From contig DAOWGL010000120.1 in NCBI GenBank assembly GCA_030637455.1, positions 1 through 16,690 on the forward strand: 16,690 nt of DNA, in the 5' to 3' direction. Shown one piece after another: positions 1 to 14,070 of the stretch. The notes under the pieces were generated by a model. That model was given only the letters and a program-made list of their open reading frames with translations, was not told where the DNA came from and made no database searches. Within the stretch, counting starts at the first letter, position 1. The number at the start of each line of letters is the position of its first letter. The translations under genes and the position numbers were made by a program. Source of the stretch: Candidatus Nitrosopumilus sp. (lineage in GTDB: Archaea; Thermoproteota; Nitrososphaeria; Nitrososphaerales; Nitrosopumilaceae).

Positions 1-1106
1 ATTCAGATATGGATGGAATTTTAAACATTAATGACGCTTGTCCATTAGAACCTGAAACTTACAACTTTTTCAAAGACGGTGACGGCTGTCCTGATTCATC
101 TAGTACTGTAGTTTCATCTTACATATTTCCAGATGCAGACGGTGATGGTATTGATGACAGATGGGATCAATGTATTGATGAGCCTGAAAATTATAATAAT
201 TTCTTAGATACTGACGGTTGTCCTGATATTCCAGGATTCTCAAAATCTGCTTTATCTGATCTTGATTATGATGGTATCCCAGACATTTTTGATGCATGTC
301 CAACAATTGGAGAACGATATAATCAATTCCAAGATGAAGACGGCTGCCCTGATACAATAGCATATGATTCATTTGGAGATTCTGACTTTGATGGTATTAC
401 TGATAATGTTGATCAATGTCCAAACGCTAGAGAAACTTACAACCGATATTTGGATGAAGACGGTTGTCCAGATCTAATTCCTGATAACAAACTTGCAGCA
501 GATTCTGACGGTGACGGCATACCTGATAATTTAGATTCTTGTCCAAACCAACCTGAAACATTCAACGGAATTGATGACAAAGATGGCTGCCCAGACCGAT
601 TTGTTTTTACACTAGATTCTGATCAAGATGGAATTGTAGATGTTTCTGATGCATGTCCACTAGAACCTGAAACTTATAATTTCTATCAAGATGAAGACGG
701 TTGTCCTGATTCTACAGGTTCTGTTGTTCCATCGTATAGTTTTGCTGATACTGATGGTGATGGTATTGATGACAGAAAAGATGCATGTATTGATGAACAA
801 GAGAACTTTAATGGTTATCTTGATTGGGATGGCTGCCCAGATGTGTTAGCTGCAAATTCTACAACTCCAACAAGAATTGATTCTGATGATGATGGATATT
901 ACGATGCAATTGATTCATGCCCAACAAACCCCGAGACTTGGAACAAGTATAATGATCATGACGGTTGTCCAGACACTGCTCCAGAACAACAAAGATTTGT
1001 CCATGATGATGACCTAGATGATATCATTAATGATGAAGATCTGTGTCCTCTTGATCCTGAGGATTATGATGGTGACAGAGATCTAGATGGCTGTCCAGAT
1101 AATTGA
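1..1106 (+). CDS. TSP3-repeat calcium-binding surface protein (5'-truncated by window edge)
   Basis: This is the C-terminal part of a repetitive acidic secreted protein. The frame is open to the window edge: codons 3-8 read Ser-Asp and complete a repeat, so the ATG at 9 is an internal Met and the true start lies upstream. Nine repeats of about 40 residues follow the plan D-x-D-x-DG-I-x-D-x-x-D-x-C-P ... PE-x-YN ... D-x-DGCPD. The DxDxDG loops are typical of thrombospondin type 3 (TSP3)/OmpA-associated Ca2+-binding repeats, and each repeat holds two Cys. Spacers of 5-12 residues are Ser/Thr/Val-rich. Repeats 1-2 closely resemble repeats 6-7. The protein ends on a repeat (GCPDN) with no membrane anchor or sorting signal visible at the C-terminus. 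A role at the cell surface (adhesion, Ca2+-dependent folding) is inferred from the family; the partner is unknown. No link to the downstream gene is seen, because that gene has its own promoter. Confidence 0.85.
   Translation, partial: SDMDGILNINDACPLEPETYNFFKDGDGCPDSSSTVVSSYIFPDADGDGIDDRWDQCIDEPENYNNFLDTDGCPDIPGFSKSALSDLDYDGIPDIFDACPTIGERYNQFQDEDGCPDTIAYDSFGDSDFDGITDNVDQCPNARETYNRYLDEDGCPDLIPDNKLAADSDGDGIPDNLDSCPNQPETFNGIDDKDGCPDRFVFTLDSDQDGIVDVSDACPLEPETYNFYQDEDGCPDSTGSVVPSYSFADTDGDGIDDRKDACIDEQENFNGYLDWDGCPDVLAANSTTPTRIDSDDDGYYDAIDSCPTNPETWNKYNDHDGCPDTAPEQQRFVHDDDLDDIINDEDLCPLDPEDYDGDRDLDGCPDN
33..1103 (+). repeat. Coding tandem array of nine about 120-bp TSP3 units with a 615-bp higher-order period
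   Basis: The protein repeats are visible as DNA repeats of about 110-130 bp. The block coding DACPLEPETYN occurs at 33 and again at 648, exactly 615 bp (205 codons, five units) apart. The units that follow each copy also match (DADGDGIDDR.D.C versus DTDGDGIDDRKDAC). This suggests that a block of five units was duplicated as a whole. Confidence 0.7.
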
Positions 1107-3360: not shown

Positions 3361-4056
3361 ATGACAGATCCATTGTTGGATGATGTAAAAGCTCTTTTGG
3401 ATGAGGATTTTGGAGATGATAGAATTTTAAAGCAAATTTGTAGAGCCTGTGAAAATAATGAAGTTATCAGTAATTATGAAAGAAATTATGTCCGACAATT
3501 AGCTGAAAAACATCTAGGAAGAAAACCTGAATTTACTCCCACTCCTTCAATTGCAGACAAACCATCAATTCCTGATATCCAAATACCTGAAATTCAACCT
3601 ATTCAACAAACTCAATCATTTCAAACTGAAGTACCAAGAATATCATATTCAAAATCAAAAAATAAAAAAATTATGTTTGGTATTGGTGGACTAGCTTTAG
3701 TAATAATTCTTGCAGTTGCAGTTTCTTTCAATGGTATTCCAACTGGAACTACAATTAATACTCCATCCAATAATACACCAATTTCACTATCAATTCACAC
3801 TGATTTAGAATCATATAACAAAAAGGATTTGATTTCAATCAGTGGTGTATCTACTTCTACAGGAACTGTGAACCTTTCAATAAAAAATCAAAATAATGAA
3901 CTTGTGTGGGCAGAACAGATATCGTTGAAAAGTGACGGGCGATTTTCAACTCTATCTATTGCAGGAGGTTCAGGATGGGAAAAATCCGGCACTTATACAA
4001 TTACAGTAGATGATGGTAAAGAAATAAAATCTGACACATTTTCATTTACTGCATAA
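3361..4056 (+). CDS. Single-pass membrane protein with extracellular Ig-like domain
   Basis: 231 residues in three parts. Residues 1-55 form an acidic helical cytoplasmic domain (DPLLDDVKALLDEDFGDD..., with RAC at 28-30) resembling short N-terminal modules seen before TM segments. Residues 56-100 are a Pro/Gln/Ile-rich linker. One hydrophobic TM helix spans about 104-124 (IMFGIGGLALVIILAVAVSF) and is preceded by a Lys-rich stretch (KSKNKK), so the C-terminus should face outside. Residues about 140-231 form a beta-sandwich with the pattern Y-x-x-x-D-x-I-x-I-S-G-x-S ... GGSGWEKSGTYTITV, like the Ig/macroglobulin-type domains common in thaumarchaeal surface proteins. Function is unknown; it may sense or anchor something at the S-layer. 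The start is the first ATG, placed about 26 nt after the TATA-box centre. Confidence 0.75.
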   Translation: MTDPLLDDVKALLDEDFGDDRILKQICRACENNEVISNYERNYVRQLAEKHLGRKPEFTPTPSIADKPSIPDIQIPEIQPIQQTQSFQTEVPRISYSKSKNKKIMFGIGGLALVIILAVAVSFNGIPTGTTINTPSNNTPISLSIHTDLESYNKKDLISISGVSTSTGTVNLSIKNQNNELVWAEQISLKSDGRFSTLSIAGGSGWEKSGTYTITVDDGKEIKSDTFSFTA

Positions 4057-7655: not shown

Positions 7656-9218
7656 TCATACATCTAAAATACCAATTACCTTGTTTGGAATATCTTTTAG
7701 TCTGCTAACTGCCATAGTTTTTTCATATCCTAAATGCCTGAGATTATTTGCTATGGTGGTGGCTCTAACTGTATTTGGGCCTAAACCCAAAGCCACCATA
7801 CTAATTCCTAAATTTTTGAAAGATTTACTCATGTTTCTTACTGCATCAGGATCTGATGGTTCCCCATCAGTTAATGTCAAAAAAATATCTGGTCTCTTTG
7901 ATTGTAAAATTGGAAACATTTTGTCGTAGACTTCAGCTAATGGTGTTGAACCATTAGCAACAATTTGTGTTAATCTTTTTGCAGTTATACTATTCCATTT
8001 TACATTTTCTGGTTTAATTGACCAACAAACCATTGATCTATTTTCAGTGCTAAAAGCATAGACTGCAAATTTTACTTTGAGAAAAGATAATACTTCACAT
8101 AATGCTAGAGTTGCTTTTTTGTATTCAATTGCATCTGATGCAATACTGGATGAATGATCTAGTAGAATTACAATTTTTGTTTTAATTGATTTTTTAATAT
8201 CTGTAAAAAATGGTTCATTACCTTCAATGTAATTTTCCTCATCAAATTCATCTCCTGAACTAAGATGCTGTTCTTTCCAACCTGTTTTCCATTCTTTGAA
8301 TTTTGTTTTTAATCCATTAATCAAACTCATATCATAGATTGTTGTTTCATCTACATTCCTTGTTGATGGAATTTGAATTCCTATTGTTTCAGTTGCTAAT
8401 CCTTTATTTTCAGTTTTTTCATTTTCATCTAATAGTACTTTGTATTCATCATAAACATCCTCTCCTCTAATTACCGATTTTGGATCAATAGTACCCAAAT
8501 CACCTTCTTTATTTTTAGAAATTACTTTAAGCACTTTTAATAATTCTTCTTCTGATAATGCCATCCCTGCTTTCATAAAAGGCAAAGAAATTGGAATTGT
8601 TAGAAGGGAATCAATATCTAACATTTTTATTATTTCACTAACATTTTTTTCAATCCAATCCGTATCCTGTTTTTGTTCAATTGCTTGATCAACAATTGAT
8701 TTGGCAAAAATCGATGCTTTTTTTATTTTTTCAAAGTTACTTGATTGAATTTCACCTTTCAGTGCTCCAAACATGAAATATTGATAAAATGCCTCTACAA
8801 TCCTTGCTTTCCCATAAACTGTGTGTAGTTGTGGCCTTGCTACAAGCATATAGGTATAATTGAAAATAATTTCTTCATCCATACCTCTCCAAATTTTTCT
8901 TCCTAACTTTTCAATTCTTTGAGTTTCCATCGTATTGAGAATAAATCCAAATGCATGATCATTACTGAGAATTTTTTTACAATATTTTATTCTCATGGCT
9001 TCATACCATAATGATGTTCTAAATTGACGATATTTTTGAAAATCATTTCCAATTCGTTTTTCCATTGGAGTTAAGATCACTTTGTTTTCTTTTAGACGCG
9101 TTTTTGTTTCTATTTTATCTGAAATTTCTACAATAATATTTTCATTTTCAGACCATCTTCTAACAAGAAAAGTTGCTATTTCAACTAAAGAATCATTTTG
9201 TAATTGAATTGCTTGCAT
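7656..9218 (-). CDS. VWA-domain (CoxE/NorD-like) partner of the AAA+ ATPase
   Basis: 520 residues. The first about 340 are helical and charged, with a disordered acidic stretch around 260-335. The C-terminal about 346-520 is a von Willebrand A domain with an intact metal-ion-dependent adhesion site: DHSSS (D354, S356, S358), T425 in GSTPLAEVY, and D451 in LTDGEPSDPD. In the MoxR-type systems NorQ/NorD and CbbQ/CbbO, such VWA proteins act as adaptors that bring the AAA+ ring to a metalloenzyme for cofactor insertion or activation. Here the ATG directly follows the TAA of the AAA+ gene with no gap, so the two are translationally linked and act together. The client protein is not encoded in this window. 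There is no signal peptide, so it is cytoplasmic. Confidence 0.88.
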   Translation of the reverse strand: MQAIQLQNDSLVEIATFLVRRWSENENIIVEISDKIETKTRLKENKVILTPMEKRIGNDFQKYRQFRTSLWYEAMRIKYCKKILSNDHAFGFILNTMETQRIEKLGRKIWRGMDEEIIFNYTYMLVARPQLHTVYGKARIVEAFYQYFMFGALKGEIQSSNFEKIKKASIFAKSIVDQAIEQKQDTDWIEKNVSEIIKMLDIDSLLTIPISLPFMKAGMALSEEELLKVLKVISKNKEGDLGTIDPKSVIRGEDVYDEYKVLLDENEKTENKGLATETIGIQIPSTRNVDETTIYDMSLINGLKTKFKEWKTGWKEQHLSSGDEFDEENYIEGNEPFFTDIKKSIKTKIVILLDHSSSIASDAIEYKKATLALCEVLSFLKVKFAVYAFSTENRSMVCWSIKPENVKWNSITAKRLTQIVANGSTPLAEVYDKMFPILQSKRPDIFLTLTDGEPSDPDAVRNMSKSFKNLGISMVALGLGPNTVRATTIANNLRHLGYEKTMAVSRLKDIPNKVIGILDV

Positions 9219-10013
9219 TTAGTTTCCAAACATTGAAGTTATGATGTCGCTTACTTTTTGATACTCTATATCCCCCCATTGTGTATAGACATTTCCAAAA
9301 ACAATTTCAGCAACTTCTTTTGCTGTCATCCCTTTATCCAATAATTTAGCGAAAGCAATCGTTTCCCTTAAGCTTGGTGAATAAAATAATTCTTCAACTG
9401 CTGCAGCCTGTCTTAATGTATTTGCTAGTTTAATCGCTTGAATTATTTCTGATTCGTGATTTCCAGAAACATATTTTTTTATAATTTCTAATTCTATATT
9501 CTCTGGTGGATATTCTAACCTAATTCGTACTGGAAATCTACTAAGTAATTGTGGTGGCAATTCTTTTGTTCCACTATGTGTTAATGGATTAATTGTTGCA
9601 ACTACAAACCAACCCTCCTTTGCTTTGATAAGTTCACCTGTTGATTCTTTTAAGACAATTTGACGTCTATCATCTAATGCTTCATCTAATCTAAGTAAAA
9701 CATCTGCTTCTGCAGAGTTAATTTCATCTAGGTATAACATATCTCCACTTTTCATTGATTTGATTAACAGACCTTCATCAAAACTGACTGTTCCATCTGT
9801 TAGTGTTTTAGTACCCACCAAATGACTTTCTCTAGTTCTTAAACTAAAATTGATAGAATCTAAATTGATATTTTTATTTTTTGCAAAATCTCTAACTAGG
9901 GATGTTTTTCCAGTTCCTTTTGGACCTATTATGAGCACAAAAAGACCTGCTTCATATGCTTTGTTTAGAATTTGAATTGAATTATTCCAGTCAAGATATT
10001 GTGCTTCTTCCAA
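9219..10013 (-). CDS. MoxR/CbbQ/NorQ-family AAA+ ATPase
   Basis: 264 residues, the compact size of CbbQ/NorQ proteins. Walker A is GPKGTGKTS (30-38), Walker B LYLDEIN (D96, E97), sensor 1 ATINP (N142) and an arginine-finger candidate LLSRFPVRI (R159). The lid domain has the sensor-2-like SLRETIAFA. Proteins of this family form hexameric rings that remodel metalloenzymes through a VWA partner, encoded immediately downstream. The start codon is TTG at 10013, since the frame is closed by a TGA shortly upstream with no in-frame ATG. A TATA-like AATATTAAATATT at 10037-10049 may drive this two-gene unit. In an ammonia oxidiser, copper or iron enzymes are obvious candidate clients, but that is inference. 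Confidence 0.92.
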   Translation of the reverse strand: MEEAQYLDWNNSIQILNKAYEAGLFVLIIGPKGTGKTSLVRDFAKNKNINLDSINFSLRTRESHLVGTKTLTDGTVSFDEGLLIKSMKSGDMLYLDEINSAEADVLLRLDEALDDRRQIVLKESTGELIKAKEGWFVVATINPLTHSGTKELPPQLLSRFPVRIRLEYPPENIELEIIKKYVSGNHESEIIQAIKLANTLRQAAAVEELFYSPSLRETIAFAKLLDKGMTAKEVAEIVFGNVYTQWGDIEYQKVSDIITSMFGN

Positions 10014-10049: not shown

Positions 10050-11511
10050 AGTTCTTAGAATCAAATGATTCTATTTTTGTAAATGCTTCCTCTAGTCTTT
10101 GATGTAGTGTTTTATTCCATTCATCAAATCCTGATGGAGTTTTTGGATAGTTGTTGTAATGCTCTACCAGCCATTGGTTTTCTTTCGAAGTATATCTGAG
10201 TCCGTCTGCAACTGTTTTATTCATTGCACCTCTGATAATCATTCCAATCTTCCCTAATCCTGAAAAGTCTGGATGTTCTCCTTTACTAATTGATTCAGCA
10301 TCAAGTTTGCCCAAAAAGTGTTTCATTCCATAACTGATTTGTTCATTAGACATTTGTTGTATTAATCGTCTAAAGAGTTCAAGACCTGCAGTTTTGTATC
10401 CATACTCTTTGATGTAATCTAAATTGTATTGCCATAAACCTGCTTCAGAAATATCGTTTGCTTCTAATGCTTGAACTACATTATTCCCTAAAATTGTACC
10501 TGCAATCAAAGCTGGTCCTATACCCCCTGCATCAATTGGTTTTGGCATCCATGCTGAATCCCCAACCATTACGTATCCTCCTGATACCATACAATCATTT
10601 TGTCTTCTAACTGAAACTTGGAATACTCCTGAATTATTGTTAATGTCTTGTGGCTCTTCTGATAATTTTGCATTTTTGATTGCAGTATTTCTATGAAGAT
10701 ATTCTTTCATTAGTGATTCAACATTATCTTTTTTACCCAATCTTTTGTTTCTTTTATCTAAAAGAGATTTTTCAACTCCTAAACCAATGTTTACTTTAGT
10801 ATCTCCTTTTGGAAATACCCATCCATATCCTCCAGGTGCAATGTCTTGATCTAAATGAATAATACAATAATCTGGATCAAATTCAGTAAGATCATTTTGG
10901 CCTTTTTCAAAATGCATGATATATCTTCCAGTCGATTCTAAATCTCGTCTATCAATTCTTTTTTCTACCTTAGTAGAGTTTTGAAGTCCATTTCTAAGCA
11001 TAGATGTAACTCCTGTTGCATCAATTACAATTTTTGATGTTTTCTTGAATGGTTGTTTTGTTTTGTTATCTACTCCTTGTATTCCAACTGCTTGTTGACC
11101 TTCATAGATTAAACCAGTAAGATTAATTTCATATTCAAATTCGATACCCATTTTTTTACATCTTTCATTTTGAATTTCTGGTAATTTTTGACGATTTAGC
11201 ATAAATCCATCACCATCAAAAGGAATTGAAGTTTCTTTATCTGGTGAGAATGCCATGACTCCTTTTACGTCATGTTCAATTTCTGGTTTAGTCCATTCAA
11301 CTTTGATTCTCTCTGACATAAAATCAACTGCTTCTTTGGAACATGCATCTCCACATACCCATCCGGCTAGTGATTTTCTACCTGGCAAAAATTCTGTATT
11401 TCTATCAACAACTAATATTTTCAGATTTTGTTTTGAATAGTGAGAAATGGATTGTGCTGTAATTGTACCAGCAAGACCTCCTCCTGCGATTATAACATCA
11501 TAATCTGCCAC
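10048..11511 (-). CDS. Geranylgeranyl reductase-family FAD-dependent oxidoreductase
   Basis: 487 residues. The N-terminal Rossmann motif DVIIAGGGLAGTITAQ binds FAD. GWVCGDACSK (about 50-59) matches the conserved Cys-containing loop of archaeal geranylgeranyl reductases. YGWVFPKGD (about 229-237) followed by NIGLGV is the substrate-cavity motif, and GDSAWMPKPIDAGGIGPAL (about 317-335) is the second FAD contact. In archaea these enzymes saturate the isoprenoid chains of membrane lipids or of quinones. Thaumarchaea carry several paralogues, and which substrate this one uses cannot be told. The start is GTG at 11511. A TATA box at 11534-11545 puts transcription start on that GTG, so the mRNA is probably leaderless. 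It is a stand-alone unit: a guide-RNA-like element lies upstream and an ATPase operon downstream. Confidence 0.9.
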   Translation of the reverse strand: MADYDVIIAGGGLAGTITAQSISHYSKQNLKILVVDRNTEFLPGRKSLAGWVCGDACSKEAVDFMSERIKVEWTKPEIEHDVKGVMAFSPDKETSIPFDGDGFMLNRQKLPEIQNERCKKMGIEFEYEINLTGLIYEGQQAVGIQGVDNKTKQPFKKTSKIVIDATGVTSMLRNGLQNSTKVEKRIDRRDLESTGRYIMHFEKGQNDLTEFDPDYCIIHLDQDIAPGGYGWVFPKGDTKVNIGLGVEKSLLDKRNKRLGKKDNVESLMKEYLHRNTAIKNAKLSEEPQDINNNSGVFQVSVRRQNDCMVSGGYVMVGDSAWMPKPIDAGGIGPALIAGTILGNNVVQALEANDISEAGLWQYNLDYIKEYGYKTAGLELFRRLIQQMSNEQISYGMKHFLGKLDAESISKGEHPDFSGLGKIGMIIRGAMNKTVADGLRYTSKENQWLVEHYNNYPKTPSGFDEWNKTLHQRLEEAFTKIESFDSKN

Positions 11512-11533
11512 GATATTGGGGTTTGTCTATCCG

Positions 11534-11545
11534 TATTTAAAATAA
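11534..11545 (-). promoter_or_regulatory. TATA box of the geranylgeranyl reductase gene
   Basis: TTATTTTAAATA on the - strand, centred about 27 nt before the GTG start at 11511. Confidence 0.5.
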
Positions 11546-11596
11546 TACCTCAAATAGTCTGTAAAATTAATAACTCAAAATTATTGATCGATAAAA

Positions 11597-11666
11597 TGGG
11601 TCGGTTCGTCGCGGCGTCTTCAAAGCTTTCGCTCAGACTGGAGCGGCTAATATTTCCTCATTCCCA
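11597..11666 (-). ncRNA. Candidate C/D box methylation-guide sRNA
   Basis: A 70-nt G+C-rich block in A+T-rich intergenic DNA. Read on the - strand: terminal stem TGGG (11666-11663)/CCCA (11600-11597); box C ATGAGGA (11661-11655); box D' CTGA (11636-11633); box C' TTGAAGA (11623-11617); box D CCGA (11604-11601). The C'-D spacer is exactly 12 nt, the standard archaeal guide length; the C-D' spacer is 18 nt. C pairs with D, and C' with D', as kink-turns with tandem G.A pairs and 3-nt bulges. The position normally occupied by U.U is G-C in C/D and A-U in C'/D', so the deviations from consensus compensate each other. The C'/D' turn is capped by a GAAA tetraloop. A TATA box is centred 26 nt upstream of the first base. 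L7Ae, Nop5 and fibrillarin would be the expected partners. Expression is not shown. Confidence 0.72.
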
Positions 11667-11688
11667 AATTGTGTAGTTGTTTTATTCC

Positions 11689-11696
11689 TATTTAAT
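11689..11696 (-). promoter_or_regulatory. TATA box of the C/D sRNA candidate
   Basis: ATTAAATA on the - strand, centred 26 nt upstream of 11666, so the predicted transcript start coincides with the first base of the terminal stem. It lies immediately beside the stop codon of the COG1325 gene. Confidence 0.5.
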
Positions 11697-12804: not shown

Positions 12805-14070
12805 CTAGATCTCTTTCTGATTTCCCATGTAACTCTGTAAAACACTAGGAATTCTAATGTGGCCATCTTTGGTTTGGAAATTCTCCATTATCGATACCAT
12901 AACCCTGGTTGTGGCTATCAAAGTACTGTTTAGGGTGTGTAAGTATTGTGTATCTTCATTTGTTTTATCTCTAAATCTAATTTTCAATCTTCTTGCTTGA
13001 TAATCTAAACAATTTGAACACGAAACAATTTCTCTGTATGCGTTTTGTCCTGCCATCCAAGCTTCAATATCATATGTCTTTGCAGAAACCTTTCCCATAT
13101 CTCCAGATGATAGTAACATTACTCTGTGAGGAATTTCCAAGTTTTGATAAAATTCTTCAGCTACTGCTAACATTTTTTCATGCTCTTTCCATGAATCTTC
13201 AGGTCTTGAAAATACGAATTGTTCAATTTTATCAAACTGATGAACTCTGAAAATTCCTTTCTGATCTCTTCCATGAGCTCCTGCCTCTTTTCTAAAACAT
13301 GGGCTAACCCCTGCATATCTTAATGGTAATTCTTTACCTTCCAGGATTTCTTTTGCTCTCATTGCTGCCATGGCATGTTCGGATGTTCCTATCATGTATA
13401 GATCTTAATCTTCAATTTTGTAGATTACTTATTGAAAATGATCATCAAGTACAGCTCCCTCCATTGATTCTCGATTAATCATGTATGGGGGTTGAACAAG
13501 TGAATATTCTTTTTTTGCCAGAAAATCCAATCCATAGTGGATTAATGATTGATTCAATCTAACAAGATCATTTTTCAAATAATAAAATCTAGCTCCTGCC
13601 ACTTTAGCAGCTCTTTCTAGGTCTACCAAATCTAAATTCTCAGAGATATCAATGTGGTCATTTATTTTAAAATCAAAACTCGGAATTTCTCCCCATTTTT
13701 TGATTTCTTTATTTGCATTCTCATCTACTCCGATAGGAACTGATTCATGAACAAGGTTTGGAATGGTTAATGCTAATTTAGAATATGTATTTTCAACTGA
13801 TTCTTGTTCAGATTCTAGTTTTGATAGTTCAGCTGAAACTTCTTTCATTTCTGACAAAATTGAAGACGCATCTTCTCCTGCTTTCTTTTTTTGAGAAATT
13901 TCTAAAGCGACTTGATTTTTCTTTTTTCTTAATTCATCTGTTTTAAGAATAAATTCACGTCTTTTTTGATCAGACTCAATCAATGTGTCCAAATCAAAAT
14001 CAACAGCTCTTGCTTTGAGCATATCTCGAATTACTTGCGGTTTCTCTTTGATTAGTTTAGGATCTAACAC
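12805..14070 (-). pseudogene. serS: Seryl-tRNA synthetase interrupted by two in-frame TAA stops
   Basis: Charges tRNA-Ser with serine (class II). Reading from GTG 14070: an N-terminal coiled-coil tRNA-binding arm (about residues 30-110), the linker IPNLVHESVPIG, and motif 1 region LVQPPYMINRESMEG. The frame then meets TAA at 13429-13431 and TAA at 13405-13407. Between and after them the same frame still reads VIYKIED and DLYMIGTSEHAMAAM, the expected SerRS sequence with the TSE serine-binding loop. Downstream, motif 2 (FRKEAGAHGRD...FRVHQFDKIEQF) and motif 3 (HTLNSTLIATTRVMVSIMEN) are intact, ending with TAG at 12805-12807. The two intact pieces are 13429-14070 (213 aa) and 12805-13395 (196 aa). 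Nothing else looks decayed, so this is recent loss, a sequence error or recoding. The GTG overlaps the Pcc1 stop by one base. SerRS identity is near certain; the pseudogene status is not. Confidence 0.85.

Follow-up and report, generated by a model that had tools for sequence, protein, structure and literature searches.

A conserved, probable box C/D guide RNA of Nitrosopumilus with compensated kink-turns and two predicted 23S rRNA targets near the peptidyl transferase centre

The window analysed here, a stretch of 16,690 nt from Candidatus Nitrosopumilus sp. (contig DAOWGL010000120.1), carries on its minus strand, at 11666..11597, a 70-nt gene that very probably specifies an archaeal box C/D guide RNA, a known kind of RNA. 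Read on that strand, the sequence is TGGG-A-ATGAGGA-AATATTAGCCGCTCCAGT-CTGA-GCGAAAGCT-TTGAAGA-CGCCGCGACGAA-CCGA-CCCA (Table 1). The boxes C, D′, C′ and D follow in this order and form two kink-turns (k-turns) with tandem G.A/A.G pairs. Passages of PMC4644070 define archaeal C/D boxes by this GA/AG k-turn motif, and it is found here. Measured against RUGAUGA and CUGA, box D′ fits, and C, C′ and D each deviate at position 3b or 3n (C′ also at R); the deviations are mostly accompanied by a compensating change in the partner.

Table 1. Elements of the predicted guide RNA and its putative promoter, in window coordinates.
Feature	Position	Strand	Basis or remark
TATA-like box TTAAATA	11689..11695	-	centred 26 nt from 11666; motif seen across the genus
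Whole predicted box C/D guide sRNA, 70 nt	11597..11666	-	pattern, conservation, model matches
Terminal stem 5′ arm TGGG	11663..11666	-	sequence and pairing
Box C ATGAGGA (consensus RUGAUGA)	11655..11661	-	ATGAGG invariant in 32 distinct genus sequences
C-D′ spacer, 18 nt	11637..11654	-	contains the D′ guide
D′ guide GCCGCUCCAGU (last 11 nt of the C-D′ spacer)	11647-11637	-	pairing with the 23S P-loop
Box D′ CTGA	11633..11636	-	CCGA in 3 of 32 genus sequences, jointly with a C′ change
D′-C′ loop GCGAAAGCT, 9 nt	11624..11632	-	2-bp GC/GC stem with GAAA cap, then k-turn bulge
Box C′ TTGAAGA	11617..11623	-	sequence, genus alignment
C′-D spacer, 12 nt	11605..11616	-	CCGCGACGA pairs over 9 bp with the foot of 23S helix 89
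Box D CCGA	11601..11604	-	sequence, genus alignment
Terminal stem 3′ arm CCCA	11597..11600	-	sequence, pairing in the genus

The original prediction, made from the letters of the window, had described a 70-nt RNA with these boxes inside a TGGG/CCCA stem, and the letters agree; its 12-nt C′-D spacer is present, and so is its G+C-rich island, the G+C fraction being 0.51 over 11600-11669 against 0.21-0.30 in the 70-nt windows just outside. Neither the 18-nt length of the C-D′ spacer, in place of 12 nt, nor the targets of the guides had figured in that prediction. It had also called the RNA unannotated, which holds for Rfam 15: a scan of the window gave no match at 11597..11666, its single sub-threshold hit lying elsewhere (3794-3908, plus strand, E 0.93). 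An ARAGORN scan found no tRNA. A relaxed C-D′-C′-D pattern has its sole site in the window at this RNA (two overlapping frames of one RNA). In 300 dinucleotide-Markov copies of the window there were 0.033 pattern hits per copy, none of them with a 4-bp terminal stem. Minimum-free-energy folding by itself is not significant (z = -0.08).

The RNA gene lies between two genes of its own strand. The upstream neighbour encodes a 142-aa RNA_binding protein (PF01877) whose stop codon, 11699-11697, is 30 nt ahead of the RNA; the downstream neighbour encodes a geranylgeranyl-reductase-like (GGR) protein with a GTG start at 11511, 85 nt past the RNA. The TATA box that had been claimed 26 nt upstream is there: TTAAATA, at 11695-11689, is centred at that distance from 11666, with one base (11696) between it and the upstream stop codon. 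TTAA[A/T]TA starts 26-31 nt upstream of the RNA in 50 of 50 genus loci, and column identity over a 12-nt stretch at this box is 0.74-1.0. An own promoter for the RNA gene, also part of the prediction, is thus likely. A second TATA-like box, TTTTAAATA, occupies 11542-11534 of the minus strand, 23-31 nt ahead of the GGR start codon; because of this box, the beginning of which is visible in many relatives, the GGR gene probably has a promoter of its own as well. According to passages of PMC7994747, archaeal C/D guides evolve fast and no position is shared by all seven species of the survey, and a TATA-like motif accompanies about 20% of C/D genes in six archaeal species. A conserved, promoter-bearing guide would on these figures belong to a minority.

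The neighbours are more changeable than the RNA. At 29 genus loci the upstream protein is beside the RNA in all 29 and GGR in 28 (at the exception, L017, the contig ends). The flanks examined of 30 more distant loci contain GGR in 3 cases (L115, L118, L120) and the upstream protein in 15, so the RNA outlasts local gene order in part. This bears on whether the element could act in cis, as an L7Ae-bound k-turn in the GGR mRNA leader or in the 3′ UTR of the upstream gene, regulating translation or decay. The short distances to both same-strand genes would suit such an element, and L7Ae action on archaeal mRNA leaders is reported in passages of PMC5539422 and PMC6298567. We nevertheless regard it as highly improbable: GGR has its own TATA-like box and is not found in the flanks examined of 27 of the 30 more distant loci, and both guides are conserved and complementary to rRNA.

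Three other features of the window may be recorded. ORFs 13429-14070 and 12805-13395 (minus strand, within 12805-14070) resemble, by eye, the N- and C-terminal parts of a seryl-tRNA synthetase, the split suggesting a frameshift or sequencing error. At 7656-10013, also on the minus strand, an AAA_5 (MoxR-like) ATPase adjoins a von Willebrand A-domain protein. An incomplete protein at 3-1106 (plus strand) repeats DxDxDG-type motifs together with CPLEPE/DGCPD units; by eye these look like calcium-binding repeats.

Conservation was followed from the genus to the phylum. In 60 Nitrosopumilus genomes, our own included, a 96-nt query matches 55, once each, and 38 of the 38 good ones (at least 90% complete, at most 5% contaminated). 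Fifty of the 55 loci were aligned; the distinct genus sequences number 32. Over these 50 loci 51 of the 70 RNA columns are invariant (mean majority 0.948), compared with 6 columns in the 50 nt upstream (0.824) and none in the 50 nt downstream (0.624). None of the 32 sequences departs from TGA in boxes C and C′ or from GA in D and D′, and each of the terminal-stem GGG/CCC pairs is formed in all 32. The second pair of the D′-C′ loop is CG in 27, UA in 2, UG in 2 and other in 1. A D′-C′ loop of about 45 nt, against 9 nt in the window RNA, is seen at L131 and L133 (genomes G272 and G278, family f7).

The region also holds a 78-codon plus-strand ORF, open at 11440-11676 in the window. It is scarcely credible, however, that a small protein gene, or a chance resemblance to a guide RNA, accounts for the locus, as the ORF belongs to no Pfam family, the flank just downstream of the RNA, which lies inside the ORF, is poorly conserved and has indels, and the RNA pattern is rare in shuffles.

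Beyond the genus, a covariance model (R2) matches 130 of 151 family genomes, including 89 of 96 good ones and 20 of 22 genera; the other 7 good family genomes have no R2 match under strict filters. In the class Nitrososphaeria R2 matches 234 of 300 genomes (177 of 213 good ones; 46 of 69 genera). A further model (R3), built from 58 diverse members, matches 239 of 398 genomes in the phylum Thermoproteota (214 of 315 good ones; 105 of 163 genera), and 165 of the 239 matches lie outside the class. As these searches required E <= 0.01 and stricter filters besides, absences are weak evidence; the E-values are rough, and a few chance hits are to be expected. Since the models contain the guides and the alignments were fitted to the model structure, the support that comes from this wider conservation is in part circular. 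Viral contigs gave no exact match to the pattern. One contig labelled Phycisphaerae bacterium (L247, JAJDDX010000004.1) contains the guide RNA pattern and is possibly mis-binned.

In the C/D turn, G5 and G6 of box C face C2 and C1 of box D, and in the C′/D′ turn, A5 and G6 of box C′ face U2 and C1 of box D′, so that the 3b:3n pair is G-C in the former and A-U in the latter. Across the 32 distinct genus sequences the C/D 3b:3n pair is always G-C, and the D′-C′ pair is U-A in 28, C-G in 3, U-G in 1 and unpaired in none. Taking all 10 pairs together, 319 of 320 cells are paired. The genus covariation score is 0.074; a +1 slide gives 0.077 but pairs only 58.4% of cells. Two pairs have two-sided change in the genus, a number attained by 34 of 500 shuffles. 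Covariation in the genus is thin and the events are few, because variation in the genus is small.

More variation is available in a class sample of 58 members, its alignment fitted to the structure of the model. Here the C/D 3b:3n pair is G-C in 28, A-U in 15, G-U in 9, U-A in 1 and other in 5, and the D′/C′ pair is U-A in 35, U-G in 10, C-G in 4, A-U in 1 and other in 8. Paired cells amount to 92.3% and the covariation score is 0.258, against means of 85.5% and 0.132 in shuffled controls and at most 53.9% and 0.112 in slid ones. The number of pairs with two-sided change is reached by 72 of 500 shuffles, and one slide yields 15 further pair types against 14 unslid. Two of the three GGG/CCC stem pairs have two-sided changes in this sample. 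For most deviations at 3b:3n the partner compensates; C.U, A.A and further mismatches also occur. The compensated k-turns of the original prediction are in this way borne out: the 3b:3n pair covaries in both the genus and the class sample, with some mismatches, and independent variation of the paired positions in relatives, the outcome it had named as contrary, was not observed, the genus events being few.

Passages of PMC5689011 state that archaeal C/D turns favour U:U. Comparing rows that are related and not independent, we find that none of the 55 class rows that could be parsed (of 58; L142, L150 and L138 could not) has U.U at the C/D turn, against 9 of 38 rows from other classes, where it is the commonest type. 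At the D′/C′ turn the contrast between classes is weak: U.U occurs in 5 of 55 class rows against 11 of 38 other-class rows when D′ is placed by fixed offset, and in 4 of 16 other-class rows when a strict D′ box is demanded, which drops 24 of 40 rows. In the same strict 16 rows the C/D turn has U.U in just 1, so the C/D contrast, too, varies with the rows counted. The missing U.U at the C/D turn looks derived in Nitrososphaeria.

These pairs matter for folding. According to passages of PMC4382518, a Watson-Crick 3b.3n pair blocks ion-induced folding of k-turns, and L7Ae still folds the turn; the same passages describe U4 k-turns as strongly biased to G-C or G-U at 3b.3n. Here the C/D turn has G:C at both -1b:-1n and 4b:4n, a type described in passages of PMC5689011 as impairing ion-induced folding, and the C′/D′ turn has C:G at -1b:-1n, described there as favouring it. 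From the Watson-Crick 3b:3n pair and the G:C pairs at -1b:-1n and 4b:4n we infer that the C/D turn at least requires L7Ae for folding. This turn had been likened to the k-turn of U4 snRNA, whose letters we take to be AAUGAGG/CCGA. The likeness is consistent with the U4 bias just cited: the turn has the same G-C at 3b:3n as the U4 5′ stem-loop k-turn, which is unable to fold in Mg2+ without protein (passages of PMC4382518). A 3b:3n pair of G-C or G-U does not imply U4 membership; unlike U4 snRNA, the RNA here has guides, two k-turns and a C/D layout.

Every one of the 32 genus rows has a C′-D spacer of 12 nt; of 55 class-sample rows, 47 have 12 nt, 7 have 13 and 1 has 10. The C-D′ spacer is 18 nt in all 32 genus rows and 13-22 nt in all 55 class rows. 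Since other classes mostly have 12 nt (33 of 38 rows with D′ placed by fixed offset; 14 of 16 with the strict D′ box), the lengthening looks derived in Nitrososphaeria. Passages of PMC8413462 give 12 nt as the optimal spacer in archaea and report that changing one spacer affects its own substrate only. In the window RNA the C′-D spacer is at this optimum, and the C-D′ spacer departs from it.

Both guides are complementary to 23S rRNA. The D′ guide pairs with the P-loop and the D guide with the foot of helix 89, so that their N+5 nucleotides, 11641 and 11609, stand opposite E. coli G2251 and U2460, respectively; the positions were assigned by alignment to E. coli 23S (L219). Pairing was followed in 23 genomes having both the sRNA and their own 23S (6 of 25 queried genomes and our own, G000, had no 23S match and were left out). 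The D guide pairs with CUCGUCGCGG (CUUGUCGCGG in G232), right after AUAACAGG or GUAACAGG, in 23 of 23, pairing having been sought at this particular place. In G232 a guide with GACAA faces CUUGUCGCGG, as against GACGA and CUCGUCGCGG elsewhere; both have changed together. An extra nucleotide before box D in G195, G267 and G272 would shift the site by one, to the residue before it. For the D′ guide, pairing with the P-loop GCUGGGGCGG is seen in 22 of 23 genomes, G081 failing; at the locus of this 3.2-Mb relative (L150) the helix 89 guide pairs at 11 positions and the P-loop complementarity of D′ is lost. Tested on the consensus sites, 53 of the 58 class-sample members pair with both, the failures being L142 and L134 on D, L150 and L127 on D′ and L138 on both. 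Among 40 further members (39 from other classes and 1 from the same order, chosen among the matches listed with coordinates) 37 pair with both; L200, L201 and L205 carry a different D guide.

Each guide match alone is modestly unlikely by chance, as shuffled guides do as well against one 16S+23S in 13 of 400 trials for D′ and 15 of 400 for D. In 12-nt scans of whole rRNA loci and flanks, other places beat the helix 89 site in several genomes (G060, G064, G075, G080 and G232 among them), so that this site was partly chosen by conservation. The D′ duplex includes two G-U pairs, and position 1 of the D guide is mismatched in the window RNA. The case for the targets is made by both guides falling in one region at the peptidyl transferase centre (PTC), one of them at a conserved Gm site, together with their conservation. 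Passages of PMC11542601 give Gm2251 equivalents for E. coli, yeast, human and Arabidopsis, with C/D snoRNPs as the guides in Arabidopsis, and passages of PMC4644070 list G2251 as a predicted target in three of seven archaea. H. marismortui Gm1950 corresponds to E. coli Gm2251 in passages of PMC11542601 and to position 1909 in those of PMC2584109, and this equivalence is not used here. A literature search on U2460 found no paper; the passages of PMC5069720 name no such RNA, and those of three further papers describe no thaumarchaeal C/D sRNA there.

The unequal spacers raise the question of whether both sites are modified. The RNA could be a true C/D guide that brings about methylation at the helix 89 (D) site alone, its D′ side serving chiefly to dock or chaperone the P-loop because the 18-nt spacer there is out of register. 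The invariance of 18 and 12 nt in the genus, the archaeal optimum and substrate-specific spacer effect in the passages of PMC8413462, and the two G-U pairs of the D′ duplex point that way. We think this unlikely, given that the D′ guide hardly varies and has G2251 precisely at its N+5 position, that G2251 is a conserved Gm site and that 22 of 23 genomes have a P-loop with which their own D′ guide pairs.

The reading that we favour, and with considerable confidence, is a monocistronic archaeal box C/D sRNA guiding fibrillarin to 2′-O-methylate two 23S nucleotides near the PTC. The guide RNA assignment of the original prediction is backed by the architecture, the conservation, two rRNA targets in keeping with the N+5 rule, and the presence of the protein genes: Pfam Fibrillarin and Nop occur in 4 of 4 genomes searched, our own included. 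Transcription would start near 11666 from the TATA box. L7Ae would bind the C/D and C′/D′ k-turns, which, having Watson-Crick 3b:3n pairs, are expected to depend on this protein for folding and to stay unfolded in Mg2+ alone, and Nop5 and fibrillarin would then join the RNP. The D′ guide on the P-loop (helix 80) would direct methylation of the equivalent of E. coli G2251, a nucleotide in contact with the P-site tRNA CCA end, and the D guide on the foot of helix 89 would direct methylation of U2460. Holding both 23S strands may also aid PTC folding.

With archaeal 23S-targeting C/D sRNAs, as described in passages of Dennis et al. (2015; PMC4644070) and PMC7994747, the RNA has in common the C-D′-C′-D order, two GA/AG k-turns, two guides, the N+5 rule and the 12-nt C′-D spacer; the seven-species set of PMC4644070, going by those passages, is without any thaumarchaeon. 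In contrast to the sRNAs in those passages, the RNA here has Watson-Crick pairs at 3b:3n in both turns and a C-D′ spacer of 18 nt, and 209 nt (E. coli numbering) separate its two targets, where double guides often act within 100 nt. Its two guides are found again in much of the phylum, whereas fast guide turnover is stressed in passages of PMC7994747. The Rfam families sR60, sR5 and snoPyro_CD match weakly to some of 20 divergent loci (best E 0.0052), always below gathering scores and never at the window RNA. In yeast snR67 presumably guides Gm2619, the equivalent of Gm2251, and we know of no helix 89 partner guide for the eukaryotic snoRNA of this site. The eukaryotic C/D snoRNA for the Gm2251 equivalent (Arabidopsis 25S Gm2620, passages of PMC11542601) addresses the same nucleotide with the same kind of machinery.

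Beyond the guide function, we put forward tentatively, as a possibility short of an even chance, that a single C/D sRNA has persisted with its guide pair unchanged from an early stage of the phylum onward because it holds the P-loop and helix 89 of nascent 23S rRNA together like a clamp, and that in Nitrososphaeria it is now of a distinct, asymmetric build: the C/D turn, and probably C′/D′ too, would have acquired Watson-Crick 3b:3n pairs, with folding thereby gated by L7Ae, and the D′ side would have grown from 12 to 13-22 nt. If this is true, the symmetric 12-nt rule of archaea is not universal, and one guide pair can escape the fast turnover of other archaeal C/D RNAs.

Passages of PMC7994747 note that the k-turn test of snoReport 2.0 requires uridine at the U-U position, where the C/D turn here is G-C, which suggests that such RNAs could be missed. 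The covarying 3b:3n pairs offer a natural experiment on the folding rules of k-turns, and the 12-nt rule finds a natural test in the long D′ spacer. With a guide pair that recurs phylum-wide on the P-loop and the PTC-adjacent helix 89, this RNA is a candidate for a near-essential, ancient guide, and ammonia-oxidizing archaea gain predicted methylation sites that can be checked directly.
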